Below are positions 22,722-53,172 of a DNA stretch of 64,000 nt, piece after piece. Each line of letters begins with the position of its first letter. The first letter of the stretch is position 1. This stretch comes from Euzebya pacifica. GTDB taxonomy: Bacteria; Actinomycetota; Nitriliruptoria; Euzebyales; Euzebyaceae. Where the stretch lies: NCBI RefSeq assembly GCF_003344865.1, contig NZ_CP031165.1:5647910-5711909 (forward strand), given 5' to 3'. The translations under genes were made by a program, and so were the position numbers. The notes under the pieces are model-generated. The model had not been told where the DNA came from. It ran no database searches and saw only the letters and a program-made list of their open reading frames with translations.

Positions 22722-23627
22722 ATGTCCCGGAGTTCACTCCTTGCCCTGCTCACCCTGACCCTCCTCGCCGGGGTCGTTCCCGTTGCCGCCGACGGGTCGG
22801 AACCCGTCCGTGACGCCACCGTCATCGCCCACCGCGGCGCGTCCGCCTATGCCCCGGAGAACACCCTTCCCGCCGTCGACCTGGGCATCGACATGGGCGC
22901 CCCGCTGGTCGAGATCGACATCCAGCTGTCGGCCGACCGTGAGATCGTCGTGCTGCACGACACCACGCTGGGCCGCACGACCGACGTCGAGGAAAACCTG
23001 CTGGCCGTCGACCCGCGGCAGCTCTATCCGCACGTGGCGTTCTTCCACTCCGCGGAGCTCGCCGAGCTGGACGCCGGCTGCTGGGGGCGGTTCGCCGACA
23101 GCCAGTACTGCGGCACCCATGTGCCCACCCTGGCCGAGACCCTCGACCTGTTCACCGAGCACCCCGAGGTCGGGCTGCTGATCGAGGTCAAGTCCCCGGC
23201 CGAGCACCCCGGCATCGAGCCGCTGCTGGTCGCCGAGCTCCAAGCCCGCGTCGCCGCCGGTGAGACCAATCCCCACGTCGTCCAGTCCTTCGACTGGCAG
23301 TCGATGCAGCGGTTCGACGTGCTCCAGCAGGACGCGGGTCTGGACTATCCCGTCGGTCTGCTCGGCACCGTCAACGAGGCGGACTTCGGCACCTACGCCT
23401 GGGCTGAGCAGGTCAACCCAAACCACGGGTCGTTGACCACCGAGTACGTCGCCGCGGCCTACGCCGCCGGCTTCAGCGTCAATCCCTACACCGTCAACGA
23501 CGCGTGCCGGATGGTGGCGCTGATCGACGACATCGGCGTTGACGGCGTGATCACCGACCGCCCCGACCTGATGCAGCGGGTCCTCGCGCCCGACACCGCC
23601 ATGCGGGCAACCCTCGACGCCTGCTGA
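22722..23627 (+). CDS. secreted glycerophosphodiester phosphodiesterase
   Basis: ATG at 22722 (GGAG upstream) gives MSRSSLLALLTLTLLAGVVP, a signal peptide ending near VAA. The GDPD TIM barrel follows at once: VIAHRGASAYAPENTLPAV (catalytic His and Arg), EIDIQLSADREIVVLHDTTL (Glu/Asp metal ligands and second His), LIEVKSP and the C-terminal GVDGVITDRPD. At 301 residues it is a single-domain enzyme that should split glycerophosphodiesters to sn-glycerol-3-phosphate and an alcohol outside the membrane, like GlpQ. It is the first gene of a rightward run and a close paralogue of the GDPD half of the fusion at 29.6 kb. Confidence 0.92.
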   Translation: MSRSSLLALLTLTLLAGVVPVAADGSEPVRDATVIAHRGASAYAPENTLPAVDLGIDMGAPLVEIDIQLSADREIVVLHDTTLGRTTDVEENLLAVDPRQLYPHVAFFHSAELAELDAGCWGRFADSQYCGTHVPTLAETLDLFTEHPEVGLLIEVKSPAEHPGIEPLLVAELQARVAAGETNPHVVQSFDWQSMQRFDVLQQDAGLDYPVGLLGTVNEADFGTYAWAEQVNPNHGSLTTEYVAAAYAAGFSVNPYTVNDACRMVALIDDIGVDGVITDRPDLMQRVLAPDTAMRATLDAC

Positions 23628-23681
23628 GCCGCCGACCACGACAAGACGCGAGCCCATGCCTCCTCTCCAAAGGCCCTCCCC

Positions 23682-26468
23682 ATGCGATCCCGCCGAATCG
23701 CGACCCTCGTGGTCGCGCTGCTCGCCCTGCAGTCCGTCAGCACCGCTGGTGCGCAGAACCAGCCCGTCCACCTGCCCGACCCGGCGCTGGGCTCGGGCAC
23801 CCAGGCCACGCACGACTGCCAGCGGGTGCCCAATCCGCAGACCTGGGCCGACGACACGCCGCTCAGCGAGCTGCCCGCCCTCCCGCTATCAACCGAGTAC
23901 ACCGCTGACCCGCTCGTTTCCAGCCACCGTGGTGCCCGCTACTTGGCCCCCGAGAACACCCTGGAGGCCTTCGAGACCGCCATCGCCTACGGCGTGGACG
24001 TCCTGGAAACCGACGTGCGCCGCTCCGCCGACGGGGTGTACGTCGTCATCCACGACACGACGGTTGACCGCACCACTGACGGAACCGGTCCGGTCGACGG
24101 GTTCACCCTCGCCGAACTGAAGGAGCTGGACGCCAGCCAGGTCGACGGCCAGGACTGGTCCGCCCTGTACCCGGATGGCGCGACCATCCCCACGCTCGAG
24201 GAGGTCGCCGCGCTCGCCCGTGACCACGGGGTCGGGCTGGAGCTGGACATGAAGGTGTCCGGCGTGGACGTGCAGCTCGAGGTCGCCGACCTCGTCGCCC
24301 GCCACGGCATCCTCGAGCAGTCGATCTTCAACCACTTCGACATCGCCGTTTCCCAGCGCTACCCCGACGCGGAGTTCATCTACAACCGGGGTGGCGAGCC
24401 CTACGCCACCGCCGAGCGGCCCGGTGCCCTCTACGCGCTGGCCACCGCCACCGAGTACGACGTCTTCGGGTCCCGCTTCGACAAGTTCACCGTCGGGGAC
24501 CTCAACCAGATCCACGACGCCTGCGGCCGCACCGCCGCGCACTCCTATGACTTCAACGCCTCCTCCTTCAACGGGGCCGACGGCCTGGAGGCCGAGCGCG
24601 AGGTGCTCAGGGCCATGCGCCAGCTGCGCATGGGTGCCCAGACCGACCAGCCGGACCTGGCCGCCCAGGAGCTGTCCGGCCCGGTCCACACCGAGCTGAT
24701 CGTCGGTCCGGCCGACGCCACCCCGGGCCGGCTCGCGACGACGCTGGAGGAGGTCGTGGACGGCAGCACCCACAAGCAGGGCGTCGCGCGGGTCGAGCTG
24801 GACGACGGCACCGCCGGGTGGGTCCACAGCTGGAACGAGGGACTGGTCCGCACCGACGACCTCGACGTGCCGCAGGCGATCAACCCCGACGCCATCCCCG
24901 TCGACCTCCGCGCCGCCGGGTTCGACCACATCTCCGACCCCGACGCCCACAACGGCGTCCTGTACGTCCCCATCGAGCAGGGCGACTACGCCGCGATGGA
25001 CCAGAAGGTCGTCCTGTTCGACCCGGCCACCCTGCAACCCCTGCCCGACACGCCGGTCCTGACCCTTCCGATCAGCCACATCGCGTGGCTGTCGGTCACG
25101 CAGGCGCCCGGCGAGGACCCCGTCATCTGGACCACGTCGGACTTCACCGACGTCACCACCGTCCAGCGGTTCTGGGTGCGCGAGGACCACACCGTTGAAC
25201 CGTTCGAGGCCGACCCGCTGGCCGGGATCGAGCTCGACACCACCCTCCAACGCGTCCAGGGCGGCGACGTCGACGCCGACGGGACACTGTGGATCTCCAC
25301 CGACGACGCGGGCAACCGGCTGTTCGCCGTCGACCCCTCCACCGGTGCCACGACCGAGGTCGGATCGATGGGCCACCTCCGCGCCGGTGGCCCCGCCAAC
25401 CTGACCGGACCGGCGCCCGTCGACGACTACGCCAAGGCCGAGGGTGAGGGCATCGACGCCACCCCGCTGCCATCCGGTGACGTGCACACGCTCGCCATCG
25501 ACGCCGTCAGGGGCGTCAGCCACTTCGCCCACTTCGCCCACCGGTCGGTCATGCCGGCCGTCCCGGACGGGCACGCCTGCCTGGTCAACGCCGGCAACGG
25601 CGCACCGATCCCCCACGCCGACCTCGGCGGCGGGGTGACCACCGGCCCCGGCGGCTGCGCCGCGATCCCCGAGGGGGCAGACCCGGCCTTCGTCGGGCAC
25701 GACGGCGCCCTGCCGGCCGGGCAGCACCCCCTCTACCGGGCCCACGCCCACAACGACTACGAACCCCACGACACCAACCGTCGCCCGCTGCTGGACGCGC
25801 TGGACCACGGGTTCACCTCCATCGAGGTCGACGTCTACCTGGTCGGTGACCAGCTGGTCGTCGGGCACGACTACGACGACCTGCGGCCCGGCCGGACCCT
25901 GCAGACCGCCTACCTGGATCCGCTCCGGGACCGCGTCAACAGCTTCGGTGGCGTGTACCGCGCCGACGAGCAGCGCTTCCAGCTGATGATCGACGTCAAG
26001 ACCGAGGCCGAGTCGACGTGGGCGGCGCTGGACCGTGTCCTCGCCGACTACGACGACATCGTGGTCGCCCAGTCCTACGACGAGGTGCTGGTCGACCGGT
26101 CGGTGCAGGTCATCATCTCCGGCAACCGGGCCCGCTCGACGATGGAGGGCCAAGCCGTCCTGTACGCCAACTACGACGGCCGCATCCCCGACGACCTCGA
26201 CGAGTCCGTCCCCGCCGCCTTCATCTCCATGAACAGCCAGAACTACAGCCACCTCGGCTGGGACGGCGAGGGCCAGCCCAGCGCGGCACAGCAGGCAACC
26301 CTGCGCGAGGCCGTCGACCGCTCCCACGCCGCCGGCCGCACCACCCGGTTCTGGGCCTCCCCCCACGACGAACGGGTCTGGCAGTGGTTGTACGACGCCG
26401 GCTCGGACTGGATCAACGCCGACGACCTCGGGCGCCTCGAGACGTTCCTCCGCGCCCAGGGCGACTAA
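23682..26468 (+). CDS. GDPD / propeller-like / AIM6-type double phosphodiesterase
   Basis: A 928-residue exported protein with signal peptide MRSRRIATLVVALLALQSVS. Residues 78-345 are a GDPD domain with His82-Arg, E109-D111 and His124. Residues about 345-680 contain repeats such as VVLFDPATLQPL and GNRLFAVDPSTGATTEVGSM, resembling propeller blades. Residues about 684-928 are a second PI-PLC-like domain of the AIM6/YqgA-like type: YRAHAHNDYE, EVDVYLVGDQLVVGHD and LMIDVKTE. Two phosphodiesterase active sites on one secreted chain suggest processive attack on a polymer or on two linkages in one substrate. It lies 54 bp after the GDPD gene and 40 bp before the NAGPA gene. Confidence 0.87.
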   Translation: MRSRRIATLVVALLALQSVSTAGAQNQPVHLPDPALGSGTQATHDCQRVPNPQTWADDTPLSELPALPLSTEYTADPLVSSHRGARYLAPENTLEAFETAIAYGVDVLETDVRRSADGVYVVIHDTTVDRTTDGTGPVDGFTLAELKELDASQVDGQDWSALYPDGATIPTLEEVAALARDHGVGLELDMKVSGVDVQLEVADLVARHGILEQSIFNHFDIAVSQRYPDAEFIYNRGGEPYATAERPGALYALATATEYDVFGSRFDKFTVGDLNQIHDACGRTAAHSYDFNASSFNGADGLEAEREVLRAMRQLRMGAQTDQPDLAAQELSGPVHTELIVGPADATPGRLATTLEEVVDGSTHKQGVARVELDDGTAGWVHSWNEGLVRTDDLDVPQAINPDAIPVDLRAAGFDHISDPDAHNGVLYVPIEQGDYAAMDQKVVLFDPATLQPLPDTPVLTLPISHIAWLSVTQAPGEDPVIWTTSDFTDVTTVQRFWVREDHTVEPFEADPLAGIELDTTLQRVQGGDVDADGTLWISTDDAGNRLFAVDPSTGATTEVGSMGHLRAGGPANLTGPAPVDDYAKAEGEGIDATPLPSGDVHTLAIDAVRGVSHFAHFAHRSVMPAVPDGHACLVNAGNGAPIPHADLGGGVTTGPGGCAAIPEGADPAFVGHDGALPAGQHPLYRAHAHNDYEPHDTNRRPLLDALDHGFTSIEVDVYLVGDQLVVGHDYDDLRPGRTLQTAYLDPLRDRVNSFGGVYRADEQRFQLMIDVKTEAESTWAALDRVLADYDDIVVAQSYDEVLVDRSVQVIISGNRARSTMEGQAVLYANYDGRIPDDLDESVPAAFISMNSQNYSHLGWDGEGQPSAAQQATLREAVDRSHAAGRTTRFWASPHDERVWQWLYDAGSDWINADDLGRLETFLRAQGD

Positions 26469-26508
26469 CCCCCCCCCCTCTCCACACCTGACAAGGATCC
26501 CCTTCACC

Positions 26509-27801
26509 ATGCGCATCGCCCTCGCCGTCCTGACGGCCGCAACCCTCGCCGTCCTCACCCTGCAGCCGGTGGTCGCCGACCCCTTGCCGCCCCTCCAAGT
26601 GGCCGAGCCCCGAGCCGTCGCCGACGGCGTGACCTACGAGCACTACTACTGGGCCGATCCCGACGAGGGACTGCCTGGCCCGACGAACCTGCCTGACGAG
26701 ACCCACGTCCACGTGCTGCGCGTGGACCGCGAGGCCTTCACCGGCCGCGCCGAGACGGTGCTCGCCGAGGGGCGGGTCACCGACAAGGAAACCGTCCCCT
26801 CCATCGCCGCCCGCACCGGGGCGCTCGCCGCGATCAACGGCGGGTTCTTCATCGTCAACGACAGCTTCGGCACGCCAGGCGACCTGATGGGCGTCAGCGT
26901 CATCGACGGCGAGCTGGTCAGCGAGGCGGTCGGTGCCCGCAGCGCGTTGGTGATCCGCGGCGACGACCTGACCGACGCGTGGACCACCCAGGTGTCGACC
27001 ACCCTGACCATCACCGCCGAGGACGGCGCGACCCGCGAGCTCGACGGGCTCAACCGGGTCCCCGGCATCGTGCGGAGCTGCGGCGGGGTCGGCGGCGACG
27101 TGCTGGACGGCGAGGTCACCCACGCCCCCGTCCACGACTACACCTGCCATGACGACAGCGAGCTGACCCTGCTGCGCCCGGTCTTCGGCGGGACCGTCCC
27201 GCCCGCCGACCGACGGCTGCTCCTCGAAGCCGGGGGTGTCGTGCTCGGCCCGCTGCTCGGCCAGACCGTCCCCGACGGCCACCAGGTCCTGCTCGGCACC
27301 GGCGACGCCGCCGAGTGGATCGACGCCCATGCCGGCGTCGGCACGCGGGTGCGGGTCACCGAGACCGTGACCACCCCCGACGGGCCCCTCGACCTGGACG
27401 GCCTCGACGTGATCAACGGTGGCCCGCTGCTGGTCCGTGACGGCGTGGCGGACGTGACCTGGGTCGAGGAGGGCTTCGGCCGGATCGACGCGGCCAACGG
27501 CTGGGTCAACAACGCCAACCCCCGCGCCGCCGTGGCGTGGACCCCCGACGCCACGTTGCTGGTCACCGTCGACGGCCGGCAGGCACTCGACGGGTCGGGG
27601 CTGGACCTCCCCTCCTTCGCCGACCTGCTGATCGCGCTGGGCGCCACCGACGCGGTGAACCTCGACGGCGGCGGCTCGGTGACCATGACCATCGGCGAGG
27701 AGGTCGTCAACAGCCCCTCGGACGGAACCAACCTGCGCACCCCGTTCACCCGCGGCACCCCGCGCCCCGTCGGCGACGCGCTGGTGCTGCTCGGCGAGTA
27801 G
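26509..27801 (+). CDS. secreted NAGPA-type phosphodiester glycosidase
   Basis: The sequence starts MRIALAVLTAATLAVLTLQP with a cleavable signal. The NAGPA fold signatures follow: TGALAAINGGFF, NNANPRAAVAWT, LLVTVDGRQ and the hallmark AVNLDGGGSVTMTI near the C-terminus. In eukaryotes this enzyme removes GlcNAc from GlcNAc-1-phosphodiesters; bacterial members are thought to cleave sugar-1-phosphodiester bonds in cell-wall polymers. In this cluster it would expose phosphomonoesters or free phosphodiesters for the neighbouring PhoD and GDPD enzymes. The spacing to both neighbours (40 and 31 bp) supports an operon. Confidence 0.88.
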   Translation: MRIALAVLTAATLAVLTLQPVVADPLPPLQVAEPRAVADGVTYEHYYWADPDEGLPGPTNLPDETHVHVLRVDREAFTGRAETVLAEGRVTDKETVPSIAARTGALAAINGGFFIVNDSFGTPGDLMGVSVIDGELVSEAVGARSALVIRGDDLTDAWTTQVSTTLTITAEDGATRELDGLNRVPGIVRSCGGVGGDVLDGEVTHAPVHDYTCHDDSELTLLRPVFGGTVPPADRRLLLEAGGVVLGPLLGQTVPDGHQVLLGTGDAAEWIDAHAGVGTRVRVTETVTTPDGPLDLDGLDVINGGPLLVRDGVADVTWVEEGFGRIDAANGWVNNANPRAAVAWTPDATLLVTVDGRQALDGSGLDLPSFADLLIALGATDAVNLDGGGSVTMTIGEEVVNSPSDGTNLRTPFTRGTPRPVGDALVLLGE

Positions 27802-27832
27802 TCGACCCCTTCCCCTCGAAATGGACCTCCCC

Positions 27833-29392
27833 ATGTCATCCCGCCGTCAGTTCCTGACCACCTCAGCCGCCACCGCGAGCGCGTTGGCGCTGACCCGCAT
27901 CCCCGCGGCGTTCGCGGCGCCCACGGCGTCCCCGCTCGGGACGGTTGGCGCGGCCGCCGACGCCCCGTTCGCGCTCGGCGTGGCCTCCGGCGACCCCCTC
28001 CCCGACTCGATCATCCTCTGGACCCGCTTGTCGATCCTCCCCCAAGCGCCCGACGGCGGGGTCCCCAACGGGACCTACGACGTCGATTGGGAGATCGCCG
28101 AGGATGAGGGATTCGGCACGGTGGTCGGCTCGGGGACCGTCGCCACCTCCGCGGCCAAGGGGTACAGCGTCCACGTCGACGCAACCGGGTTGGAGCCCGC
28201 CCGTGCCTACTGGTACCGCTTCAGGGCGCTGGGCGTGATCAGCCCGGCCGGTCGAACCAAGACGGCCCCGGCGGCGGGCCAGAGGACCGGGCTGACCAGG
28301 ATCGCGTTCGGGTCCTGCCAGAACTACTCCGGCTACTTCGTGCCCTACCAGTACCTGGCCGCCGACGACGTCGACGTCTTCTTTCACCTCGGCGACTACA
28401 TCTACGAATCCCTCGGGGTCCGCACCGGGACCCCGCTGGCATCTCCCGAACCCACCGACCTCGACGGCTACCGCTGGCGGTGGGCGGAGTACAAGGCCGA
28501 CCCCGACCTTCGAGCCGCCCACGCCACCGTCCCGTTCGTGTGCACGTGGGACGACCACGAGGTCGACAACGACTACGCCGGCGACCACGGACAGGGCGGC
28601 GATGACCCCGAAGCCTTCCGTGCCCGCCGGTTCGCCGCCCACCAGGCGTTCTACGAGAACCTGCCGCTGCGGACCCCGGACCCGATGGGGGGCCAGCTCA
28701 AGCTGTTCAGGCGCCTGACCTACGGGGACCTCGTTCGTTTCCACGTGCTGGACAACCGGTCGTACCGTGACAACCATGCGTGTGAGGGGCCCGGCGGCGG
28801 GGGTGGCCGCGTCATCTCCGCGGACTGCGCCGACCTGACGGACCCGTCGCGCACCATGTTGGGCTTCCCGCAGGAATCCTGGCTCCACGAAGGGTTGCGG
28901 ACCGCGCCGACCAAGTGGAACGTCGTGGCCCAGCAGCTGCTGTTCAGTCAGCTAGAGCAGATCGTGGGGCCCGAGCAGGGCCGCTGGGTCGATGGGTGGG
29001 ACGGCTACGCCGCCACCCGCCAGCGCCTGATCGACGTGTTCGCCGAGGAGCGCGTCGCGAACCCCCTCCTCATCGGGGGTGACATCCACAACCACTGGGT
29101 CGCCGACGTCAAGACCAACTACGACGACCCGTCGTCGGCCACCGTGGCCAGCGAGTTCGTCGGCACCTCCATCTCCTCCAACGGGTCCAGCTTCGACCGA
29201 TACCTGCCCGAGAATCCCCACATCCTCTTCCACGAGTACCGCTACCGCGGCTATGGCCGGTTGTCGCTCACCCATGACGAGGCCATCTGCGACTTCCCGG
29301 TCGTGTCCAGCGTCTCCGGACCCACCAGTGACGCGTTCGCCCTCGACAGCTGGGCCGTGGAAGCAGGCAGCACCGGAGCGCATCGCGTGTGA
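27833..29392 (+). CDS. phoD: PhoD-family alkaline phosphatase/phosphodiesterase (Tat-exported) 1
   Basis: The start MSSRRQFLTTSAATASALAL has a twin-arginine motif (SRRQFL), so the folded enzyme is exported by Tat. PhoD signatures are FGSCQNYSGYF, VFFHLGDYIYE, TWDDHEVDNDYAG and GGDIHNHW, the metal-binding residues of the Ca/Fe enzyme. Its substrates include phosphomonoesters, phosphodiesters and, in Bacillus, wall teichoic acid. I prefer ATG 27833 to the upstream ATG at 27821 because it is preceded by a leader (GACCTCCCC) resembling that at 23682. It is the last gene of the rightward run before a PHO-box-containing gap. Confidence 0.92.
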   Translation: MSSRRQFLTTSAATASALALTRIPAAFAAPTASPLGTVGAAADAPFALGVASGDPLPDSIILWTRLSILPQAPDGGVPNGTYDVDWEIAEDEGFGTVVGSGTVATSAAKGYSVHVDATGLEPARAYWYRFRALGVISPAGRTKTAPAAGQRTGLTRIAFGSCQNYSGYFVPYQYLAADDVDVFFHLGDYIYESLGVRTGTPLASPEPTDLDGYRWRWAEYKADPDLRAAHATVPFVCTWDDHEVDNDYAGDHGQGGDDPEAFRARRFAAHQAFYENLPLRTPDPMGGQLKLFRRLTYGDLVRFHVLDNRSYRDNHACEGPGGGGGRVISADCADLTDPSRTMLGFPQESWLHEGLRTAPTKWNVVAQQLLFSQLEQIVGPEQGRWVDGWDGYAATRQRLIDVFAEERVANPLLIGGDIHNHWVADVKTNYDDPSSATVASEFVGTSISSNGSSFDRYLPENPHILFHEYRYRGYGRLSLTHDEAICDFPVVSSVSGPTSDAFALDSWAVEAGSTGAHRV

Positions 29393-29467
29393 CCCCGGCC
29401 GCCGTGAGGCCCGGTCGCGACGACGAACCGCCGCAAGGCACCCGCCTGTCTCGGAGGGGCACTCCGG

Positions 29468-29500
29468 CGTGGTTGACGTCGGTGTGAGCGTTGGGTGAAC
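29468..29500 (-). promoter_or_regulatory. three-unit PHO box
   Basis: Read on the minus strand, consecutive 11-mers are GTTCACCCAAC (29490-29500), GCTCACACCGA (29479-29489) and CGTCAACCACG (29468-29478). These fit the 11-nt direct-repeat PHO box of Streptomyces PhoP (GTTCACC core). The box lies 52 bp upstream of the EEP/GDPD gene but in reverse orientation to it, so functional use needs testing. Confidence 0.6.
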
Positions 29501-29551
29501 CCACGGCGATGCGGCAGGAGGTTGGCGCGGCGGGGGTGAAGTAGATCGGTG

Positions 29552-31567
29552 ATGCGCCGAATCCTCCCCTCCCTGACCCCTGCCCTCATCGCCTGCTTGC
29601 TGGTCGCCACCGCCACGGTGGCGGGAGCACAGACGACCGACTTCACCCCGCCCCCGCGGCCGGCCGACACCAACGCGCTGCGGGTCATGACCTACAACGT
29701 CCGCTACGCCTCCAACGCCTCGGGCCACGAGGACTGGGGCACCCGGTTCCCCGACATGGCCGCCCAGCTGCAGCAGTCCGACCTCGACCTCCTCGGCACC
29801 CAGGAGCTGAAGGAGACCGCCGGCGACTACACCCAGCGGCTGGACATCCTGGACGCCCTCGGCGGCCCCGACGAGTTCGGCTACATCGGCACCTCCCGTG
29901 GTGGCCCCGACCGGCCCGACGACGAGCAGATGGGCATCTACTACCGCCTCGACCGGCTCGAGCTGGTCGAGGAGGGCCACTTCTGGCTCTCGCCCACGCC
30001 CAACGAGCCGTACTCCTTCGGCTACGGCAACACCGGGAACTCCCGGATGGCGTCGTGGGGCCACTTCCGCGACCGCCGCAACGGCCACGAGTTCTACGCC
30101 GTCAACACCCACTTCGACCACGCCAACAACGACGCCCGCTACCGCGCCGCCGACCAGATCGCCGGCTACTTCACCGGGGACCCCGCCTACGACGTCGACG
30201 GGGTCACCTTCCGCGACGACCTCCCCGTCGTCATCACCGGCGACTTCAACTTCAACCGGGGCGACAGCCTTGCCGCCGGCGTGGTGCTGAACGCCAACAG
30301 CGCCGAGGCCGAGCGGCTGCCCGGCAACCAGCCGGCCCATGACCCGATGAAGGACACCCGGCCCGACAGCCCGTACCCGAGCCTGCCGTTCGGCACGCCG
30401 GCCGGGGAGCCCACGCCGCTGGTCGGCAACACCTCGCCGTACCACCGCCTGGTCACCGGTGGGCCGTTCATCGACGCGTGGGACGCCGCCGACGTCACCG
30501 GCCCCGCGCCGACCGGCACGTTCTCCGGGTTCGGTGAGCTCGACAACCGCTGGCTGGACTGGATCCTCGCGTCGGAATCGGTGGAGGTGCTGCAGGCCTA
30601 CGTCGACACCTACCGGCCCGGCGGCGAATGGCCGTCGGACCACCTGCCCGTGGTCGCCGACGTGGTCATCCCCGCCCACCACGACGACGTCGATGTGGTC
30701 GCCCACCGCGGCGCGTCCCGCTACGCCCCGGAGAACACCCTGCCCGCCATCGAGATGGCGATCGCGATGGGAGCCGAGCAGGTCGAGATCGACGTGTCAC
30801 TGTCGGCTGACCAGCAGATCATCCTGCTGCACGACAACACGCTGTCGCGGACCACCAACGTCGAGGAGGTGTTCGCGGGCGACCCGCGCGTCGTGGCCGA
30901 CGACTCGGTCCCGCAGCTGTTCACCGCCGCGGAGCTCGCGACCCTGGAGGCGTCCAACTGGGGTCGGTTCGCGGTCGGCTCGACCAGCGACGACGGCCGG
31001 TACGCCGGCGCCTACCTGGGCACCCACGTGCCGACCCTGGCCGAGGCGCTGGCGTTGTTCGAGGACCACCCCGACGTCGGCCTGCTGATCGAGCTGAAGG
31101 CCCCTGCCCTGTCGCCGGGCATCGAGCAGATCCTGATCGACCAGCTGCTCGCCGAGCGGGCCAAGGGCTTCACCAACCCCCACGTCGTGCAGTCCTTCCA
31201 CCCCGACTCCATGGAGCTGTACGCGCACCTGCAGGTCGCGGCTGGTCTGGACCTGCCGGTCGGCCAGCTGCACTTCGTGTCGGCCAACCTCGGCGACGCC
31301 TTCCGGGCCCAGTCCACCTACGCCGACGGTTTCAACCCCTCTCACGGGTCGTTGAGCGCCGCCGCAGTGGCCGAGGCGCACCAAGCAGGCCTGACCGTCA
31401 CCCCCTACACGATCAACGACTCCGCCCGACAGGCCGAGCTCGTCGCGATTGGCGTTGACGGGGTCATCACCGACCGCATCGACCGCCTGCAGTGCGTCCT
31501 GCGGGGCGAGGCCCCCGAGGCCTGCGACGCCCTGCCGCTCCCCGAACCCTTCCAGACCGAGGAGTAG
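29552..31567 (+). CDS. secreted EEP phosphatase/nuclease fused to GDPD
   Basis: A signal peptide (MRRILPSLTPALIACLLVA) leads into an endonuclease/exonuclease/phosphatase domain (about 45-375) with MTYNVRYAS, GTQELKE (catalytic Glu), AVNTHFDH, ITGDFNFN and SDHLPVVADV. Residues from about 385 are a full GDPD domain: VVAHRGASRYAPENTLPAI, EIDVSLSADQQIILLHDN and GVDGVITDRID. The fusion would combine phosphodiester cleavage of nucleic acid or phospholipid head groups with glycerophosphodiester hydrolysis. The GDPD half is close to the gene at 22722, so the fusion likely arose by duplication. The actual start may be the ATG at 29552 or the GTG just before it. Confidence 0.87.
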   Translation: MRRILPSLTPALIACLLVATATVAGAQTTDFTPPPRPADTNALRVMTYNVRYASNASGHEDWGTRFPDMAAQLQQSDLDLLGTQELKETAGDYTQRLDILDALGGPDEFGYIGTSRGGPDRPDDEQMGIYYRLDRLELVEEGHFWLSPTPNEPYSFGYGNTGNSRMASWGHFRDRRNGHEFYAVNTHFDHANNDARYRAADQIAGYFTGDPAYDVDGVTFRDDLPVVITGDFNFNRGDSLAAGVVLNANSAEAERLPGNQPAHDPMKDTRPDSPYPSLPFGTPAGEPTPLVGNTSPYHRLVTGGPFIDAWDAADVTGPAPTGTFSGFGELDNRWLDWILASESVEVLQAYVDTYRPGGEWPSDHLPVVADVVIPAHHDDVDVVAHRGASRYAPENTLPAIEMAIAMGAEQVEIDVSLSADQQIILLHDNTLSRTTNVEEVFAGDPRVVADDSVPQLFTAAELATLEASNWGRFAVGSTSDDGRYAGAYLGTHVPTLAEALALFEDHPDVGLLIELKAPALSPGIEQILIDQLLAERAKGFTNPHVVQSFHPDSMELYAHLQVAAGLDLPVGQLHFVSANLGDAFRAQSTYADGFNPSHGSLSAAAVAEAHQAGLTVTPYTINDSARQAELVAIGVDGVITDRIDRLQCVLRGEAPEACDALPLPEPFQTEE

Positions 31568-31577
31568 GAATCAGGGC

Positions 31578-33575
31578 CTACCGGGCCGTCCGCAGGGGGA
31601 GGGTTGCCGGAGCGGGCACCGCCGGCTTGGCGGGACCGGCGGTGCGCTCCAGCGGTGACAGGGGGACCAAGTGGGGGCGTCCGACCTGGTTGGCGTAGCG
31701 GGCCAGCACGGTGTCGGCCGGGGTGCCGGCCGGGCCGGTCTCGCCCGGCCCGGTGTTGACGGTCTTGTCCGACGCCAGCAGCTCGAGCTCTGACCGGTCA
31801 CCGAACAGGTGGACCATCGAGTGCCCGTACTCGCGCCAGTTCATGTACCGCATGCTGGGGTTGGCGGCCATCGCGGCGGTCTCGGCCGCCAGCGACGCGG
31901 CGATCGCCGGGATGCGAGCGGCCCGGTAGGCGGCGTGGAAGGTCGGGTCGGATCCCGCCTCGAAGCACGAGTGGGCGCTGCCCTGTCCCGCCCCGGCCTC
32001 ACAGGCCGTTTCCGCGACCACGTCAACCAGCCCGGGCCGGCCCATTCCGTTGATCAGCTCGACCCCGACTGGGGTCAGGCCCACGCCAGCGTCGTCGCCC
32101 GCCCAGGGGTCGACGGGGTTGTAGTCGGGCGCGGTGGAGTCCTCGACCAGGTCGTAGGCCCACCAGCCGTGGCTGTCACCGGACAGGACGATGTTGTCCA
32201 CGATCCCGCGGTCGCGCAGGAAGGCGAAGAGCTGCCGCCGGTCGCTGGTCCAGCCCGGGTAGATGTCCACGACGTCCTCGGCGTTCTCCACGCTCGTCAG
32301 CCCCAGCTCGCGGGCACCGTCGCGCAGCGCCGTCGGCAGGTTGAAGTTGCCCAGCTGCCCCATGTTCTTCTGGTTGAGCAGGATCCGGTGCGTCGCCCCG
32401 GCGTGGGCCTCGAAGGTGTCCTGCAGCCAGCGCCACTGGGTCGGACCCAGCATGGCCGGGGCCGGGCCGAACGGCATGCCGTCGTTGGCGGTGGCCGCCT
32501 GCTCCTCGGTCTCGAGCTGCCGGGAGTAGTGCCAGTCGATGACGATCAACGACAGCAGCCGACCCCACGACATCGCGCGGTGCGTGAAGAACGCTTCGGC
32601 GCCGCGCGGCGTCTCGACGTTGGCGAACGGACCGGGGGAGGGGCGGAAGGTGCCGCTGTGGTCGGGCCGCACCGGACGGGTCGGCGACCACTCCCAGAAC
32701 ACCTCAGCGCCCCCGAAGCGCCGCTCCTCCTCGCTCAACGACTCGTCGCGCAGATCGGCGAAGTCGTGGTTGTCCACCGCGATGACCCACGGTGCCGCCA
32801 TGTGCGCCGCCATGAGGTGGGGGTCCTGGTAGTACAGCGCGTACCGTCGGCGGGCCTCGTTGCGGGTCGACCAGCGCCGGGCGTCGACGTCGTCGATGTC
32901 GAACCGGTCCTCCCACGCCCGTACGGCCGGGTGCCCGCCACAGAACTCATAGACGTGGTCGCCGACGTGGATGACCAGGTCCACGTCGTCGCGCTCGGCG
33001 ATTCGGGCGTACGCGGAGAAGTGGTCCTGCCACCACGAGGTGCAGGCGACGTGGGCGGCGTGCAGCTCGGTCACGTCGTCATCGGGGCCGGGCGCGGTGC
33101 GGGTCCGTCCGACGGGGGAGCGGTACCCCAGCGCCTCGAAGCAGTAGAAGTACACGGCATTGGGCGTCAGCCCGTCGACGTCGACCTTGACCGTCCAGTC
33201 CCGGCCGGCGTCGGTGGTGACGGCACCGCTCGCGCGGACGTCGACCATGTCCGGGTCGGTGGCCACCTTCCACACCACGTTGGTCGACGTCACGCCCTGC
33301 GGGTCGGTGACCTCCCAGCCGCGGTCGTCCGGGATCGACACCCGGGTCCAGATGATCACGCGGTCGGCCAGCGGGTCGCCCGAGGCCACGCCGTGCCCGA
33401 ACGGCAGCAGGTCCACCTGCGCGGGATAGTCCCATCCGGCCGGCGGGACCACGTCCACCGCCGACGGCCCGATCGGAGCGGTCTGGGGCGGGAAGCGGTT
33501 CGGACGGCCGACGGAGACGCCCAGGAGCGGGGCGAGTCCGGAGGCCTTGAGCACGTCACGACGGCTGATCGACAT
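31578..33575 (-). CDS. PhoD-family phosphatase (Tat-exported) 2, divergent metal motif
   Basis: The start MSISRRDVLKASGLAPLLGV is a Tat signal (SRRDVLK). The PhoD core is recognisable by GHGVASGDPLADRVIIWTRV, LVIHVGDHVYEF and LSGDSHGWW, but the usual WDDHE motif reads VDNHDF, so one metal-site residue differs. The C-terminus is about 100 residues longer than the other copies. At 665 residues it is an unusually large PhoD. Upstream is a perfect pair of PHO-box 11-mers. It converges with the EEP/GDPD gene with only 10 bp between stops. Confidence 0.82.
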   Translation of the reverse strand: MSISRRDVLKASGLAPLLGVSVGRPNRFPPQTAPIGPSAVDVVPPAGWDYPAQVDLLPFGHGVASGDPLADRVIIWTRVSIPDDRGWEVTDPQGVTSTNVVWKVATDPDMVDVRASGAVTTDAGRDWTVKVDVDGLTPNAVYFYCFEALGYRSPVGRTRTAPGPDDDVTELHAAHVACTSWWQDHFSAYARIAERDDVDLVIHVGDHVYEFCGGHPAVRAWEDRFDIDDVDARRWSTRNEARRRYALYYQDPHLMAAHMAAPWVIAVDNHDFADLRDESLSEEERRFGGAEVFWEWSPTRPVRPDHSGTFRPSPGPFANVETPRGAEAFFTHRAMSWGRLLSLIVIDWHYSRQLETEEQAATANDGMPFGPAPAMLGPTQWRWLQDTFEAHAGATHRILLNQKNMGQLGNFNLPTALRDGARELGLTSVENAEDVVDIYPGWTSDRRQLFAFLRDRGIVDNIVLSGDSHGWWAYDLVEDSTAPDYNPVDPWAGDDAGVGLTPVGVELINGMGRPGLVDVVAETACEAGAGQGSAHSCFEAGSDPTFHAAYRAARIPAIAASLAAETAAMAANPSMRYMNWREYGHSMVHLFGDRSELELLASDKTVNTGPGETGPAGTPADTVLARYANQVGRPHLVPLSPLERTAGPAKPAVPAPATLPLRTAR

Positions 33576-33617
33576 GCCACCGGAGTATGCGCAAGGTCCG
33601 CGACGCCGGGCCGGGAC

Positions 33618-33639
33618 GGCCGGTGAAGGTTGAATGAAC
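33618..33639 (-). promoter_or_regulatory. PHO box upstream of phoD copy 2
   Basis: On the minus strand the 11-mers GTTCATTCAAC (33629-33639) and CTTCACCGGCC (33618-33628) form a direct repeat of the PhoP type, in the orientation of the gene that begins at 33575. AGTATG on the plus strand at 33584 gives a CATACT-like -10 on the coding strand, although the spacing to the box is long. Confidence 0.65.
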
Positions 33640-33673
33640 AACCCGGTCGCTGCCGTCCATGGACCGACCGGAC

Positions 33674-35347
33674 CTAGTCGAAGGGTGTCCCGACGGTCTG
33701 GGTCACGGCGTTGGTGCCGCGCTCGATGACGAACTCGGCCTTGGTCGTGATCGCCGGGCGTGGGTTGTAGACGTCGTCGATGGTGCGGAGCCGGCTGATC
33801 CAACGGTCGGCGGTCACCTCCGCGGTCATGTAGCCGCGGGACAGCCCCTCGAAGTACTTCAGGTGGGCGTTGTTGGCGTAGAAGATCGGGCGCAGGCCCG
33901 TCTGCTCCTCCTGGGAGAACCCGCTTGAGGTGATCGAGGTCGCGCAGAGCTCAACGCCGACATTGGGGGACAGCGGGTTGTCGAAGTCGCGCTTGAGCTC
34001 GCTGACCCACGTGGAGTGGATGTCGCCGGTGAGGACGGTCACGTCGGGGATCCCCTCCTCGGCGATGTGGCCGAGCAGCGCTGCCCGTTCGGCTTGATAG
34101 CCATCCCACTGGTCGGCGTTGATGTAGTTGCCGTCGGTGAAATCGATCGCGCCGAGCGCCGGGGCGATGGAGTCCTGCAGCTGCTGCGGGATTCCTCCCG
34201 CGCGGATGGCCGCGATCAGCACCTGCTGCCCGAGGGTCCGCCACGCGGCGGTGGAGGAGGAGAGCTCGTTCATCACCCACTGCCGCTGGTCCAGCCCGAG
34301 GATGGTCGCGTCGGGGTCGTCCACCTCGGCACACGTCACCGACACCGTCGCGTCGTCGCACGGCTGGTCGGTGCGGAACTGGCGGGTGTCCAGCACGACC
34401 AAGTCGAGCAGGTCGCCCCACCGCACGGTGCGGTGGATGACGAAGTCCGGGCCGGTCGGCAGGCCCGCGGGTGGCCGGATCGGCATCATCTCGTAGTAGG
34501 CCTGGTAGCTGTTGGCCCGGCGGGCGATGAAGGCGCTGTCGGACTGCTGGCCGGGCCCGTCGTCGTCCTCGCGGATCGTGCCCGCGTAGTTGTTGTCGAA
34601 CTCGTGGTCGTCCCACGTCACGACCCACGGGAACAGCGCGTGGGCCTGCCGTAGGTTGGGGTCGCCGCGGTACAGGGCGAACCGGCGGCGGTACTGCTCG
34701 AGCGTCTCGGTCTCCTCGAGCCTGTCCTCCTCGCGGGTGTCGCTCTCGGCGCCAGGGTCGAAGGGCTCCTCGTAGAAGTAGTCACCGGAGCAGAAGACGA
34801 GGTCGATGTCCTCGCGGCACAGCTGGCGGTAGGCGCCGAAGAAGCCGATGTGGAACTTGGCACAGCCGACCATGGCCATGCGCAGCCGGTCACCGCCCGC
34901 GGTCTTGGTCCGACCGATCCGCGACGTCTTGCCGAGGGCGGAGAACCGGTACCAGTACCACTGGCCGGGCTCGAGGCCGTCGGCGGTCACGTGGACGGTG
35001 TGAGCGAAGTCGCGGTGGGCGATGGTCGTGCCGGAGTTGACGACCCGGCGCATCCGGGGGTCGGTGGCGATGGCCCAGCTGACCTCGACCTGCTCGGGCA
35101 TCTGCTCCTGCGCGTCCTCGAGCAGTGGTTCGTCGACCACACGGGTCCACAGCACCACCGAATCGGCGGCCGGGTCGCCAGAGGCCACCCCGATGGTGAA
35201 CGGTGCGGGATCGAAGCTGACGCCCAGCGGCAGCGCTTGGGCCTCGGCGTCGCGGAGGCGCAGTCCGTAGGGGGACCACGCGGCTGCGGCGCCAGCGGCC
35301 ACGGCTCCGGCAAGGAAACGGCGGCGGTGCAGGGGGAGGGAAGGCAC
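33674..35347 (-). CDS. phoD: PhoD-family phosphatase (Tat-exported) 3
   Basis: The product starts MPSLPLHRRRFLAGAVAAGA (Tat signal, RRRFL; GTG start at 35347) and has the canonical PhoD motifs: TIGVASGDPAADSVVLWTRV, LVFCSGDYFYEE, TWDDHEFDNNYAG and LTGDIHSTWV. The length of 557 is normal for this family. It should hydrolyse extracellular phosphomono- and diesters. It is the third PhoD in 8 kb and lies about 100 bp downstream of the second in the same direction. A PHO-box unit, GTTCACCCAGC, lies just upstream. Confidence 0.92.
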   Translation of the reverse strand: MPSLPLHRRRFLAGAVAAGAAAAWSPYGLRLRDAEAQALPLGVSFDPAPFTIGVASGDPAADSVVLWTRVVDEPLLEDAQEQMPEQVEVSWAIATDPRMRRVVNSGTTIAHRDFAHTVHVTADGLEPGQWYWYRFSALGKTSRIGRTKTAGGDRLRMAMVGCAKFHIGFFGAYRQLCREDIDLVFCSGDYFYEEPFDPGAESDTREEDRLEETETLEQYRRRFALYRGDPNLRQAHALFPWVVTWDDHEFDNNYAGTIREDDDGPGQQSDSAFIARRANSYQAYYEMMPIRPPAGLPTGPDFVIHRTVRWGDLLDLVVLDTRQFRTDQPCDDATVSVTCAEVDDPDATILGLDQRQWVMNELSSSTAAWRTLGQQVLIAAIRAGGIPQQLQDSIAPALGAIDFTDGNYINADQWDGYQAERAALLGHIAEEGIPDVTVLTGDIHSTWVSELKRDFDNPLSPNVGVELCATSITSSGFSQEEQTGLRPIFYANNAHLKYFEGLSRGYMTAEVTADRWISRLRTIDDVYNPRPAITTKAEFVIERGTNAVTQTVGTPFD

Positions 35348-35364: not shown

Positions 35365-35375
35365 GCTGGGTGAAC
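35365..35375 (-). promoter_or_regulatory. single PHO-box 11-mer upstream of phoD copy 3
   Basis: GCTGGGTGAAC on the plus strand is the complement of GTTCACCCAGC, an excellent PHO-box unit, 18 bp before the GTG start. The flanking 11-mers match poorly, so this may be a weak or half site. Confidence 0.45.
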
Positions 35376-35461
35376 GAACGGTGGCGCCGGAGCAGCAGAA
35401 CGCGCCATCGCCATGCCCGATCCCTGGCCCGTCGGCTGACGCCGTCTGACCGGCGTGTCGC

Positions 35462-41260: not shown

Positions 41261-41600
41261 CCCCAGCCGCCAGCTGCTGGACCGCATCGGCGGGAAATGG
41301 ATGACGTTGCTGCTCTGCGCCCTGGGCGGGACCGACCAGCCGTTGCGCTACTCCGAGCTCGAACGGCAGGTGGCGGGGATCAGCCCCAAGATGCTCACCC
41401 AGACGTTGCGTGCCATGGAACGTGACGGCCTCGTCACCCGAACCGTTGTCCCGACCGTCCCGGTGACGGTGTCCTACGAACCGACCGCCCTCGGGCGCTC
41501 GCTGCAGGCGGCCGTCAGGACGTTGAAGGACTGGGCCGAGGCCCACATGGACGAGGTACTCGCCAGCCAGCAGGCCCACGACACCACCGCTGTCGGCTAG
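41190..41600 (+). CDS. HxlR-family transcriptional regulator
   Basis: GTG at 41190 follows GAGGAG. The 136-residue winged-helix protein has [19 protein letters not shown] (the family-defining Cys and GGKW), [20 protein letters not shown] (recognition helix) and [19 protein letters not shown] (wing). HxlR proteins respond to electrophiles such as formaldehyde or quinones, often through a cysteine. The duplicated promoter carries an imperfect CATCTCGAGGTG palindrome. Its targets are probably elsewhere, or the aldo/keto reductase at 35.5 kb that sits beside the other promoter copy. Confidence 0.9.
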
Positions 41601-44078: not shown

Positions 44079-44924
44079 TCAGCGGCTCAGGGCGACGGCA
44101 CCGGTCTTGGCCGCCAGGCGCGTGAGCTTGGCGTGGCTGTCGGTCCCGGGGATGGCGGTGTAGACGAGGAGGGAGTGGGACTGGACGGGGTCGCGCAGGG
44201 TCTGGCACTGCAGCTCGAGGAGACCGACGTCGGGGTGGACGAGGCGCTTGACGTCGGGGGGACCCACGCCGATCTCCTGCTCGGCCCACAGGACGGCGAA
44301 CTCCTCGCTGTGGTCCAGCAGCAGGTCGGCGAGCCCCGCGGCGCGGGAGTCGGGTCCACGCAGCGCGACCAGCTGTCGGAGTCCCGAGACGAAGCGGCGG
44401 GACAGGACGACCTGGTCCTCGGGCAGGTAGCGGCGTCGCGCGTCGGGGTCGGTGAACCAGCGGTAGCCGATGGAACGGGCTGGCCCCTCGTACCCGGTGG
44501 TATCACCGTTGATGGCCACGGCGAGGGGGGTCTGGCGGAGCGTCTCGCCGAGCTCGGTCACGATCTCCGCCGGAGTGTCACCCAGCCGGTCGAGGACCCG
44601 TCCGAGGCCGGGGCTGATGTGGTCGCTGCTGGCAGTGCGGGGTGGGGGCTGGTGGCCCGCGAGCCGCAGGAGGTGGTCGCGTTCGTCCAGCGTGAGGCGC
44701 AGTCCCTGGGCGATGGCCCGCACCATCTGCACCGACGGGCGTGGGCCGCGTTGTCGTTCGAGACGGGTGTAGTAGTCGGTGGACATGTGACAGAGGGCCG
44801 AGACCTCTTCGCGTCGCAGCCCGTCGGTGCGGCGACGGGCGCCACGGGGCAGCCCGACGTCCTCGGGTTGCAGGGCGGCTCGTCGGAGCCGTAGGAACTG
44901 CGCAAGTCCGCTCGTGTCCATCAT
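44079..44924 (-). CDS. MmyB-like helix-turn-helix regulator 1
   Basis: An N-terminal HTH with FLRLRRAALQPEDVGLPRGA then RTDGLRREEVSALCHMSTDY and the ARLxRQRGPRP pattern, followed by an MmyB-like ligand-binding domain (from about 95) with WFTDPDARRRYLPED and HPDVGLLELQCQTLRDP. MmyB domains bind fatty-acid-like ligands. I chose the ATG at 44924 by alignment with the neighbouring paralogue. The two genes are tandem, about 65 bp apart, and share a CGATCCCCCCTT motif at the same distance upstream. Confidence 0.87.
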   Translation of the reverse strand: MMDTSGLAQFLRLRRAALQPEDVGLPRGARRRTDGLRREEVSALCHMSTDYYTRLERQRGPRPSVQMVRAIAQGLRLTLDERDHLLRLAGHQPPPRTASSDHISPGLGRVLDRLGDTPAEIVTELGETLRQTPLAVAINGDTTGYEGPARSIGYRWFTDPDARRRYLPEDQVVLSRRFVSGLRQLVALRGPDSRAAGLADLLLDHSEEFAVLWAEQEIGVGPPDVKRLVHPDVGLLELQCQTLRDPVQSHSLLVYTAIPGTDSHAKLTRLAAKTGAVALSR

Positions 44925-44989: not shown

Positions 44990-45829
44990 TCAGGCGGTCG
45001 TTTCTGCGCCGATCACCGAGAGGAGCTCGAGCTTCCCGGCCGACTCCGACCCTGGGGTCGCGGTGTAGACGAGCAGGTAGTGAGAGTGCACGGGGTCGCG
45101 GAGGGTCTGGCAGTTCAGGTCGAGCGGACCGACTTCGGGGTGGATGAACCGCTTGACCTCGCGGGGTCGGAGCCCCACCTCGTGCTCGTCCCACAGCTCC
45201 CGGAACTCCGCGGAGGTCTCGAGCAGGAGCTGGGCGAGGTCCGCCGACCGCGAACCAGGACCGCGGAGGGTGACCACCTGTCGGAGCCCCGAGACGTAGA
45301 GGCGTGAGAGGAACGCGTGGTCCTCCTCCAGGTACCGCGCCCGGGTGGCCGGCTCGGTGAACCAGCGGTAGCCGAGACTGCGCGCCGGTCCCTCGTGGAC
45401 GGTGTTGTCGCCGGTGAGGGCCACGCCCAGCGGTGTCTGCCGCAGCGTCTCGCCCAGCTCGGTCACCACCTCGGCGGCGGTATCGGTGAGCCGGTCGAGG
45501 ATGCGCAGCATCCCCGGGCTGATGTGGTCGTCGAGCGGGCCGCGTGGCGGTGGCTGGTGACCGGCGAGGCGGAAGAGGTGATCGCGTTCGTCCACCGTGA
45601 GGTGCAGGCCCTGCGCGATGCCACCGATCATCTCCACCGAGGGTCGGGGGCCGCGCTGGCGCTCAAGGCGGGAGTAGTAGTCGGTGGACATGTGGCAGAG
45701 CGCCGCAACCTCCTCACGACGCAGTCCGGACGTCCGGCGACGTGGACCTCGCGGCAGGCCGACGTCCTCGGGCTGCATGGAGGCGCGCCGCTGACGGAGG
45801 AACTCGGCAAGACCCGGTCTGTCGATCAC
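44990..45829 (-). CDS. MmyB-like helix-turn-helix regulator 2
   Basis: A paralogue of the previous gene, with FLRQRRASMQPEDVGLPRGP, CHMSTDYYSRLERQRGPRPS and YRWFTEPATRARYLEEDHAF. Start GTG at 45829 (VIDRPGLAEFL) aligns with the other copy. Divergent from the SDR at 46004 across 174 bp that contain a long inverted repeat. MmyB-like regulators are frequently found next to the SDR genes they control, so this protein probably regulates the SDR. Confidence 0.87.
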   Translation of the reverse strand: MIDRPGLAEFLRQRRASMQPEDVGLPRGPRRRTSGLRREEVAALCHMSTDYYSRLERQRGPRPSVEMIGGIAQGLHLTVDERDHLFRLAGHQPPPRGPLDDHISPGMLRILDRLTDTAAEVVTELGETLRQTPLGVALTGDNTVHEGPARSLGYRWFTEPATRARYLEEDHAFLSRLYVSGLRQVVTLRGPGSRSADLAQLLLETSAEFRELWDEHEVGLRPREVKRFIHPEVGPLDLNCQTLRDPVHSHYLLVYTATPGSESAGKLELLSVIGAETTA

Positions 45830-51264: not shown

Positions 51265-51286
51265 GTTCACCTCACGTTCACACCAG
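51265..51286 (+). promoter_or_regulatory. perfect PHO box before the metallophosphoesterase gene
   Basis: Two adjacent 11-mers, GTTCACCTCAC (51265-51275) and GTTCACACCAG (51276-51286), share the GTTCAC core and lie in the orientation of the gene that begins at 51301. This is the best PHO box in the window. It ends 14 bp before the ATG, so the transcript may have a very short leader or be leaderless. Confidence 0.8.
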
Positions 51287-51300
51287 CAGTCAGGGCGGAC

Positions 51301-53172
51301 ATGGCGATCACGAGGCGGCGTTTCATCGCGCTGGTCGGTGCAGTGGCGGCAGCAACGGGACTTCCCCAGGAGGTCGTCGCAGCCGAGCTGATGCAGGCCG
51401 ACAGCGAGGCGGCGGTCGCGGCCGCGCGGCTGACCACGCTGGCCCAGACCCTCCGGCAGGGCACCGTCAACGACCTCGGCTACGCGCCGGTCGCCCTCGG
51501 GGACGGTGAACCCCACCTCGTCCGTGACGAGCTGACCACCCCGCAGGCCAACCGCGACCAGCGCCGACGCAGCCTGCTGTGCGTCGTCCACCTCACCGAC
51601 CAGCACATCATCGACGTGCAGTCGCCGGCCCGGGTCGAGTTCACCGACCGGTTCGTCAACGACGCCTGCCCACCCCCGTTCGAGTCGGCCCACCGCCCGC
51701 AGGAGGCCGCATCGGCCAGGATCGCCGATGCGATGATCCGCCGGATCCGCGAGATGGGCAGCTCACCGGTCACCGGCGCACCCATCGCCGCCGCGGTCTG
51801 CACCGGCGACAACATCGACAACCAGCAGGCCAACGAGACCGACGTCTTCCTCGCCGTCATGGACGGGGGCACGGTCACCCCCAACTCCGGCGACCCCTCC
51901 CTCTACGAGGGCGTCCAGGCCAGCGGCGACCTGCAGTACTGGCATCCCGACCCCGCCATCCAGGACCGCTACAAGACGACCTACGGGTTCCCCGACGCCC
52001 CCGGCTTCCTGACCGACGCGCTGGCCAGCTTCACCGCCCCCGGCATCGGCCTGCCCTGGTACTCCGCTTACGGCAACCACGACGGCCTCCTGCAGGGCAA
52101 CGCCCCGACCAACCCCGCCCTCGAGGGCATCGCCACCGGCCCCCTCAAGGTCCTCAGCCCCGGCCCCGCCAACCCGTGCCTGCTGGCCGACGGCGAGGTG
52201 CCGATCTCCCCGGTCGGCGCCCCAGCCACCCCGGTCACCGCCGACCCCGAACGGCGGATCATCGACCGCGCCGAGTACGCCCGCAAGCACATGGAGTCCC
52301 CCGGGCTGCCCACCGGCCACGGCTTCACCCAGGCCAACGTCGACAACGGCATCGTCTACTACGCCGCCGACGTCGGCCCGCTGCGGTTCATCGTCCTCGA
52401 CACCGTCAACCCGGGTGGGTTCTCCGAGGGGTCCGTCGGCGACACCCAGCTGGCATGGCTGGACGCCGAGCTGCAGGCCTGCGACGACAACCAACGCCCG
52501 GCCATCCTCTTCAGCCACCACGGGCTGCGGTCGCTGACCAACCCGATCGTCACCCCCGACCCCGCCGATCCGCAGGGCGGCGACCTGCCCCGCCACCTGG
52601 CCGACGACGTGCAGGCGGTCTGCACCGCCCACCCGAGCCTGATCCTGTGGGTCAACGGCCACACCCACTCCAACACCGTGGGCTTCCGGGGCGAAGGGAG
52701 CGGCGCGTTCTGGGACGTCGGCACCGCCGCGCACATCGACTGGCCGGCGCAGGCCCGCGTCATCGAGGTCGTCGACAACGCCGACGGCACCCTGTCGATC
52801 TTCACCACGATGATCGACCACGACGACCGCGACCCGACGGTGTTCCTCGCCCGCGAGCTGATGGGCAACGACCCGCAGGGAGGCTTCGCGGGGACCGGGC
52901 CAGGCGAGTTCAACGACCGCAACAACGAGCTGCTGATCGCCAACCCGTTCAGCGCGACCGGCCCAGCTCCCACCCCGACCCCGACGGCCACCCCCACGCC
53001 CACGCCGACCCCGACGAGCCAGACCGGCACGGGCAGCAGCACGACCAACAGCGGCTCGACCGGCCAGCGGCTGCCCGCGACGGGCCCCGCCTCACCCAAC
53101 CTCACGATCGGCGGCGCCCTCCTCCTTGCCGGGGCCGCCGGCCTGCGCGCCGTCCGCCAGCCACGTACCTGA
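51301..53172 (+). CDS. Tat-exported, LPXTG-anchored metallophosphoesterase
   Basis: The start MAITRRRFIALVGAVAAATG is a Tat signal (TRRRF). The phosphoesterase core shows VHLTDQHIIDVQ, CTGDNIDNQQ, SAYGNHDG, LFSHHGLRS and WVNGHTHSN, the metal ligands of the calcineurin fold, matching the TIGR03767/PPA1498-type family. A Thr-Pro linker (PTPTPTATPTPTPTPT) precedes LPATG (591-595), a hydrophobic stretch and a positively charged tail (VRQPRT), a sortase substrate. So the enzyme would be displayed on the wall. With a perfect PHO box upstream it is a clear phosphate-starvation gene. Confidence 0.92.
   Translation: MAITRRRFIALVGAVAAATGLPQEVVAAELMQADSEAAVAAARLTTLAQTLRQGTVNDLGYAPVALGDGEPHLVRDELTTPQANRDQRRRSLLCVVHLTDQHIIDVQSPARVEFTDRFVNDACPPPFESAHRPQEAASARIADAMIRRIREMGSSPVTGAPIAAAVCTGDNIDNQQANETDVFLAVMDGGTVTPNSGDPSLYEGVQASGDLQYWHPDPAIQDRYKTTYGFPDAPGFLTDALASFTAPGIGLPWYSAYGNHDGLLQGNAPTNPALEGIATGPLKVLSPGPANPCLLADGEVPISPVGAPATPVTADPERRIIDRAEYARKHMESPGLPTGHGFTQANVDNGIVYYAADVGPLRFIVLDTVNPGGFSEGSVGDTQLAWLDAELQACDDNQRPAILFSHHGLRSLTNPIVTPDPADPQGGDLPRHLADDVQAVCTAHPSLILWVNGHTHSNTVGFRGEGSGAFWDVGTAAHIDWPAQARVIEVVDNADGTLSIFTTMIDHDDRDPTVFLARELMGNDPQGGFAGTGPGEFNDRNNELLIANPFSATGPAPTPTPTATPTPTPTPTSQTGTGSSTTNSGSTGQRLPATGPASPNLTIGGALLLAGAAGLRAVRQPRT

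Follow-up and report, generated by a model that had tools for sequence, protein, structure and literature searches.

The window analysed here, a 64 kb stretch of DNA to which positions refer unless another locus is named, contains seven consecutive genes (A to G) between positions 22722 and 35347. An earlier note on this DNA had described them as phosphoesterase genes in a row, and that description holds: each lies where it had been placed and has clear Pfam matches, which read from A to G are GDPD, GDPD, NAGPA, PhoD, GDPD plus Exo_endo_phos, PhoD and PhoD.

22722..23627, + strand: gene A, secreted GDPD, 301 aa; Pfam PF03009, E=1.6e-38; Sec-like leader
23682..26468, + strand: gene B, secreted double barrel, 928 aa; Pfam PF03009 GDPD, 4.3e-30; Sec-like leader
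26509..27801, + strand: gene C, NAGPA-type phosphodiester glycosidase, 430 aa; Pfam PF09992, E=2.7e-25; Sec-like leader
27821..29392, + strand: gene D, PhoD, 523 aa; Pfam PhoD 6.1e-98 plus PhoD_N; Tat-like leader
29549..31567, + strand: gene E, EEP-GDPD fusion, 672 aa; Pfam GDPD 1.1e-36 plus Exo_endo_phos 1.6e-8; Sec-like leader
31578..33575, - strand: gene F, divergent PhoD, 665 aa; Pfam PhoD 1.2e-41; start ATG at 33575; Tat-like leader
33674..35347, - strand: gene G, PhoD, 557 aa; Pfam PhoD 2e-102; Tat-like leader

Genes A to E follow one another on the + strand, separated by 54, 40, 19 and 156 bases. The two remaining genes, F and G, occupy the - strand, F converging on E with 10 bases between them. 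The flanking genes are unrelated: a SpoU methylase stands to the left, and to the right come genes for an aldo/keto reductase and an AMP-binding enzyme. The leaders, classed by eye from the translations, fit the Sec and Tat signal peptides previously proposed: A, B, C and E have Sec-like leaders, and those of D, F and G are twin-arginine (SRRQFL, SRRDVL and HRRRFL, respectively). The genome consists of two contigs of 5.80 and 0.57 Mb (6.37 Mb in all) and holds four PhoD genes, six GDPD genes (seven matches, two of them in one giant protein) and two NAGPA genes. Three of the four PhoD, three of the six GDPD and one of the two NAGPA genes, thus 7 out of 12, are found within the 12.6 kb of the island. 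With so few family members genome-wide, the concentration to which the earlier note had drawn attention is far beyond chance (probability about 3e-13).

The GDPD catalytic motif HRGA..ENT is intact in A (residue 37), B (residue 82) and E. Gene A, the N-terminal part of B and the C-terminal part of E all combine the PF03009 domain with HRG..ENT, the Pfam match in B spanning just the first half of the profile. The A protein and the GDPD half of E are 53% identical, closer to one another than to any other sequence in the comparison, the next homologues standing at about 40%; this suggests a duplication inside the cluster, after which one copy was fused to an EEP domain. Gene B begins with a GDPD domain (about residues 75-335), continues with a beta-rich middle and ends in an AIM6-like barrel of the GDPD/PLD type (about residues 683-928). 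Although Pfam misses this second barrel, its 245 residues match standalone actinobacterial proteins, mostly at 43-52% identity; it keeps an HAHNDYE motif at residue 688, and its fold resembles those of a GDPD (1zcc) and a PLD (9yd8). These properties make B a double barrel. The former reading of B as GDPD, propeller-like and AIM6-type in succession is thus upheld at both ends, whereas the propeller is unproven: the AlphaFold model of the middle is of low confidence, too poor to confirm such a fold.

The structural relatives of C in the PDB are 6ozd, 3ohg and the NAGPA chains 6pku/6pky. D, F and G each possess PhoD_N and PhoD domains behind a leader that is of Tat type by eye. D scores 446 bits with the NCBIfam PhoD model, under that model's cut-off, and G is 48% identical to the fourth, conserved PhoD of the genome. 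F has a far lower PhoD score than D or G and carries VDNHD in place of their WDDHE; its matches in the PDB are 9uya (8.9e-49) and 2yeq (8.7e-38).

In gene E, an EEP domain (about residues 33-375) precedes the GDPD domain (about 380-650). The AlphaFold model of the EEP half has a pLDDT of 84.8 (28 sequences), and the structures nearest to it are 3mpr and 4c1r, the latter being the mannosyl-6-phosphatase Bt3783, with target-normalised TM scores of 0.82-0.88. Sequence and fold taken together place 3mpr, 4c1r, 3g6s and 3l1w closest, while Nocturnin, CNOT6L and TDP2 match with far weaker E-values. Thirty EEP positions are invariant in 28 aligned sequences (E included), and they cover the expected active-site residues N18, E54, H156, D200, N202, D332 and H333 (domain numbering). 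In this alignment E shares the conserved active-site positions of the Bt3783-like group of EEP phosphatases. The likeness has limits: Bt3783 is among the nearest solved relatives of this half of E, yet the two are only about 28% identical, and the EEP domain stands alone in the solved chain but is fused to a GDPD in E. An exonuclease III or DNase-type nuclease was considered for this domain and ranked low, as neither its closest relatives nor its fold are those of nucleases. The designation “EEP nuclease” used in the earlier note is probably wrong for E, which is nearest to the Bacteroides mannosyl-6-phosphatase, and the role in nucleic acid degradation attached to that designation finds no support.

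The closest EEP domain found, 51-53% identical, is a standalone one at locus L169 of a gammaproteobacterial MAG. A long insert after the TGDFN motif of E recurs only there among the 28 aligned sequences. The L169 gene (9860-10987) encodes a lipoprotein-like EEP, and together with E it may define a distinct EEP subgroup.

Both fusions originally proposed, B and E, are real, and the type represented by E was found nowhere else in the material searched. EEP domains occur in 35 out of 396 actinobacterial genomes, but only in E is the reading frame long enough for the fusion. Plasmid records contained no EEP-GDPD fusion covering 80% of E, and a search for related loci with gene E alone returned no relative. 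The cluster is absent from the three congeners and the 60 class genomes searched; in the other 60 class genomes, when matches were compared by contig, no GDPD gene was found less than 10 kb from a PhoD gene. Within the material searched, the complete cluster occurs in this lineage alone. The conserved co-localisation that the earlier note would have expected in related genomes is therefore missing at the levels of genus and class; a smaller GDPD/PhoD/EEP group nevertheless occurs independently elsewhere. A scan of 84,980 species was narrowed to its 80 best EEP loci, and in a single one of them, from Bailinhaonella thermotolerans, genes for GDPD, PhoD and EEP stand close together on one strand, within about 6 kb. 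Here the three are separate genes, two opposite-strand genes intervene between GDPD and PhoD, and the fusion, the NAGPA gene and the double barrel are all wanting. The association of these three families thus recurs, though rarely.

In the nearest congener (G014), the SpoU flank is 85% identical in DNA sequence up to the SpoU start, and different genes lie beyond. The homologue of the aldo/keto reductase is on another contig, where its neighbours are a subtilase and a regulator similar to that at position 41301 of the window. An empty insertion site was sought in this congener and none was found. With homology ending at the SpoU start and the other flank lying among other neighbours on another contig, the site has been rearranged rather than cleanly interrupted. 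Further along the window, two adjacent and very similar XRE-type regulator-like genes (44079-44786 and 44990-45691) are apparently the product of a tandem duplication.

Some indication of how the island is controlled came from its intergenic regions. According to PMC4415409 and PMC7866108, the PHO box of S. coelicolor consists of 11-base direct repeats with the core GTTCACC. Repeats of this type occur in the pst promoters of four congeneric genomes, the present one included. Nine of these promoter sites, and no others, served to train a matrix, which gave five intergenic matches of at least 12 bits in the 64 kb window. They correspond to four sites, all before phosphoesterase genes (E, F, G and a gene at 51301). 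The sites, with the additional gene, are as follows.

29479..29500, - strand: PHO-box-like site, units GTTCACCCAAC and GCTCACACCGA, with a third, weaker unit CGTCAACCACG; upstream of E, on the opposite strand; 14.9 bits, a score reached by 7 of 3000 dinucleotide shuffles
33618..33639, - strand: PHO-box-like site, units GTTCATTCAAC and CTTCACCGGCC; about 43 bases upstream of F; 17.3 bits, the best in the window; 3 of 3000 shuffles
35365..35386, - strand: weaker PHO-box-like site, units CGCCACCGTTC and GTTCACCCAGC; only about 18 bases before the start codon of G; 12.2 bits; 30 of 3000 shuffles
51265..51286, + strand: PHO-box-like site, units GTTCACCTCAC and GTTCACACCAG; outside the cluster, before the 51301 gene; 15.6 bits; 13 of 3000 shuffles
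51301..53172, + strand: TIGR03767 metallophosphoesterase, Tat-type, with an LPXTG-like C-terminal anchor; NCBIfam E=5.5e-129, above cut-off

The matrix had pointed to the site at 51265 before the 51301 gene was identified as a TIGR03767 metallophosphoesterase; this gene is probably another member of the Pho regulon. We also ran the matrix on 77 independent upstream regions of the same genome, with gene calls from a simple script. The seven regions that rank highest after pstS precede F, a purple acid phosphatase, the 51301 gene, the fourth-PhoD operon, E, G and the operon of the giant double-GDPD protein. All seven of these non-training regions lead into phosphoesterase genes or operons, against 11 of 76 overall; the hypergeometric probability of 1.5e-7 is indicative only, for the set of 11 was made after ranking and five of the loci had been fetched because they carry phosphoesterase genes. 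A rank test across all island gaps was not significant (p=0.15), which is attributable to the inclusion of operon-internal gaps. Upstream of A no significant PHO box was detected (206 of 3000 shuffles reach the score), and the A-D block is without a clear box. As predictions, then, the boxes of E and F are well supported, that of G moderately so, and that of the A-D block is not. Since matches of a pst-trained matrix at or above 12 bits fall exclusively before phosphoesterase genes in the window, phosphate control of E, F and G is a well-supported prediction, and the role in phosphate salvage originally suggested for the island gains independent backing. The Streptomyces-type PHO box is thereby indicated as a working predictor in this other actinobacterial class.

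Taken together, gene content, secretion-type leaders, intact catalytic motifs and PHO-box-like sites form the starting point for a reading that would extend to regulation in the cell, to substrates and to the coupling of steps in E. We consider it likely (roughly 70%) that the island is a lineage-specific Pho-regulon locus serving to scavenge phosphate from extracellular organic phosphodiesters. Under phosphate shortage, a regulator of the PhoP/PhoB type would recognise the PHO boxes and activate E, F and G at the least. The secreted GDPD barrels of A, B and E would hydrolyse glycerophosphodiesters (deacylated phospholipid head groups, for instance) to glycerol-3-phosphate; the NAGPA protein (C) would act on sugar-1-phosphodiesters and the PhoD proteins (D, F and G) on further phosphoesters. 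The sugar-phosphatase-type EEP half of E, along with PhoD, would release Pi for uptake by the Pst transporter. Precedents exist for parts of this scheme: the extracellular conversion of GPC to G3P and Pi has been shown in Pseudomonas (PMC5438359), and glpQ1 and glpQ2 of Streptomyces are PhoP-dependent (PMC7866108). The wall-binding CWB2 repeats, present in three other GDPD/NAGPA proteins of the genome, are found in none of the GDPD/NAGPA proteins of the island, which suggests that the island enzymes are released rather than wall-bound.

With a diesterase and a presumed monoesterase on one chain, the two steps could be coupled in E; the fusion predicts a single protein capable of taking a glycerophosphodiester fully to Pi. 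One could envision E as a one-chain diester-to-phosphate enzyme, in which the GDPD half makes glycerol-3-phosphate and the EEP half strips the phosphate at once, and as the centrepiece of a Pho-controlled cluster that, through NAGPA, also opens sugar-1-phosphodiesters. We give this more elaborate version a rather low probability. No described system of such kind, with sugar-1-phosphodiesters as the phosphorus source, was found.

Other destinations for these enzymes can be imagined. The cluster might be directed at other organisms and attack their wall polymers or phosphorylated glycans, for example phosphomannans or sugar-1-phosphate polymers; NAGPA would cut the diester and EEP would remove the remaining phosphate. 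The pairing of NAGPA with a relative of the Bt3783 mannosyl-6-phosphatase would provide a two-step route for sugar-1-P-6-sugar diesters, and free secretion would suit such a role. However, the cluster includes neither glycan-cleaving enzymes nor sugar transporters, most of its genes are GDPD and PhoD, and the substrates of the EEP group are poorly known, all of which make this explanation improbable. Less credit is due to the idea that a phosphate-limited cell uses the cluster to take apart the teichoic acid of its own wall, the task performed by GlpQ and PhoD in Bacillus subtilis. In that organism teichoic acid is degraded by the same two families, GDPD and PhoD (PMC11488536), and PHO-box-like sites are present here, in keeping with the analogy drawn in the earlier note. 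The analogy is weakened, however, by a genome-wide search for TagB/TagF-type polymerases (PF04464), which gave no match here and was positive in the B. subtilis control; with no such polymerase found, the cell is unlikely to be salvaging teichoic acid of its own. The missing CWB2 repeats, pointing to release rather than wall binding, argue in the same direction. A wall phosphopolymer of another kind may still be an own-wall substrate.

Least probable of all, in our judgement, is that the enzymes feed mainly on head-group carbon (glycerol, choline, sugars) or extracellular DNA, phosphate being incidental. It is true that GDPD products include glycerol phosphate and alcohols and that nucleases exist within the EEP superfamily. 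Against this stand the PHO-box-like sites at E, F and G, the absence from the cluster of genes that would import or catabolise such carbon, and the EEP domain itself, for which a sugar phosphatase is the nearest relative and nucleases are much weaker matches.

Returning to phosphate scavenging, the cluster is an unusually concentrated form of a known strategy. It shares with the Streptomyces Pho regulon (GlpQ1/GlpQ2 and PhoD; PMC7866108, available text) secreted GDPD and PhoD enzymes, GTTCACC-type direct repeats and extracellular glycerophosphodiester hydrolysis. In that text the Streptomyces GDPD genes are scattered, whereas those of the island are clustered, and it makes no mention of an EEP-GDPD fusion, a NAGPA member or a double-barrel GDPD. 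The GlpQ/PhoD salvage of B. subtilis (PMC11488536) employs the same two families under phosphate limitation; the differences lie in the TagB/F-type polymerase, not found here, and in the additional NAGPA, EEP and AIM6-like domains. The phosphate utilisation systems (PUS) of Flavobacterium (PMC8115612) are likewise organic-phosphorus clusters with phosphodiesterases and phosphomonoesterases, and they are induced by phosphate depletion. However, PUSI and PUSII are built on SusCD-type outer-membrane transporters, no such pair being found among A-G or their annotated neighbours, and their enzyme families differ from those of the island. A compact secreted enzyme set that turns organic phosphodiesters into phosphate matters wherever phosphorus limits growth, and the present one suggests that NAGPA and EEP enzymes may also take part in phosphate scavenging.

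A few observations concern other phosphate loci of this genome. Locus L016 (7450-15592) comprises genes for a CWB2 protein, a PhoD and a purple acid phosphatase; PHO-box-like sites lie upstream of both the CWB2-PhoD pair and the phosphatase gene. The PhoD part of this block is conserved in G014 (L128), and the block may be the genus's ancestral Pho phosphatase locus. The giant double-GDPD protein (L015 5263-13197; C1 3085762-3093696) is a secreted protein of 2644 aa that also has Calx-beta and carboxypeptidase-regulatory domains and three CWB2 repeats; a PHO-box-like site of 11.2 bits precedes the gene upstream of it. Lastly, a PstS search with TIGR00975 gave a low score in this genome, yet the locus is a normal pst operon. 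In the same genomic place, G014 has a full TIGR00975 PstS match (L136) and the present genome a weak, partial one (L135 7422-11404). The occurrence of clearly different PstS proteins at the same place in two congeners suggests that the operon has been replaced in situ.
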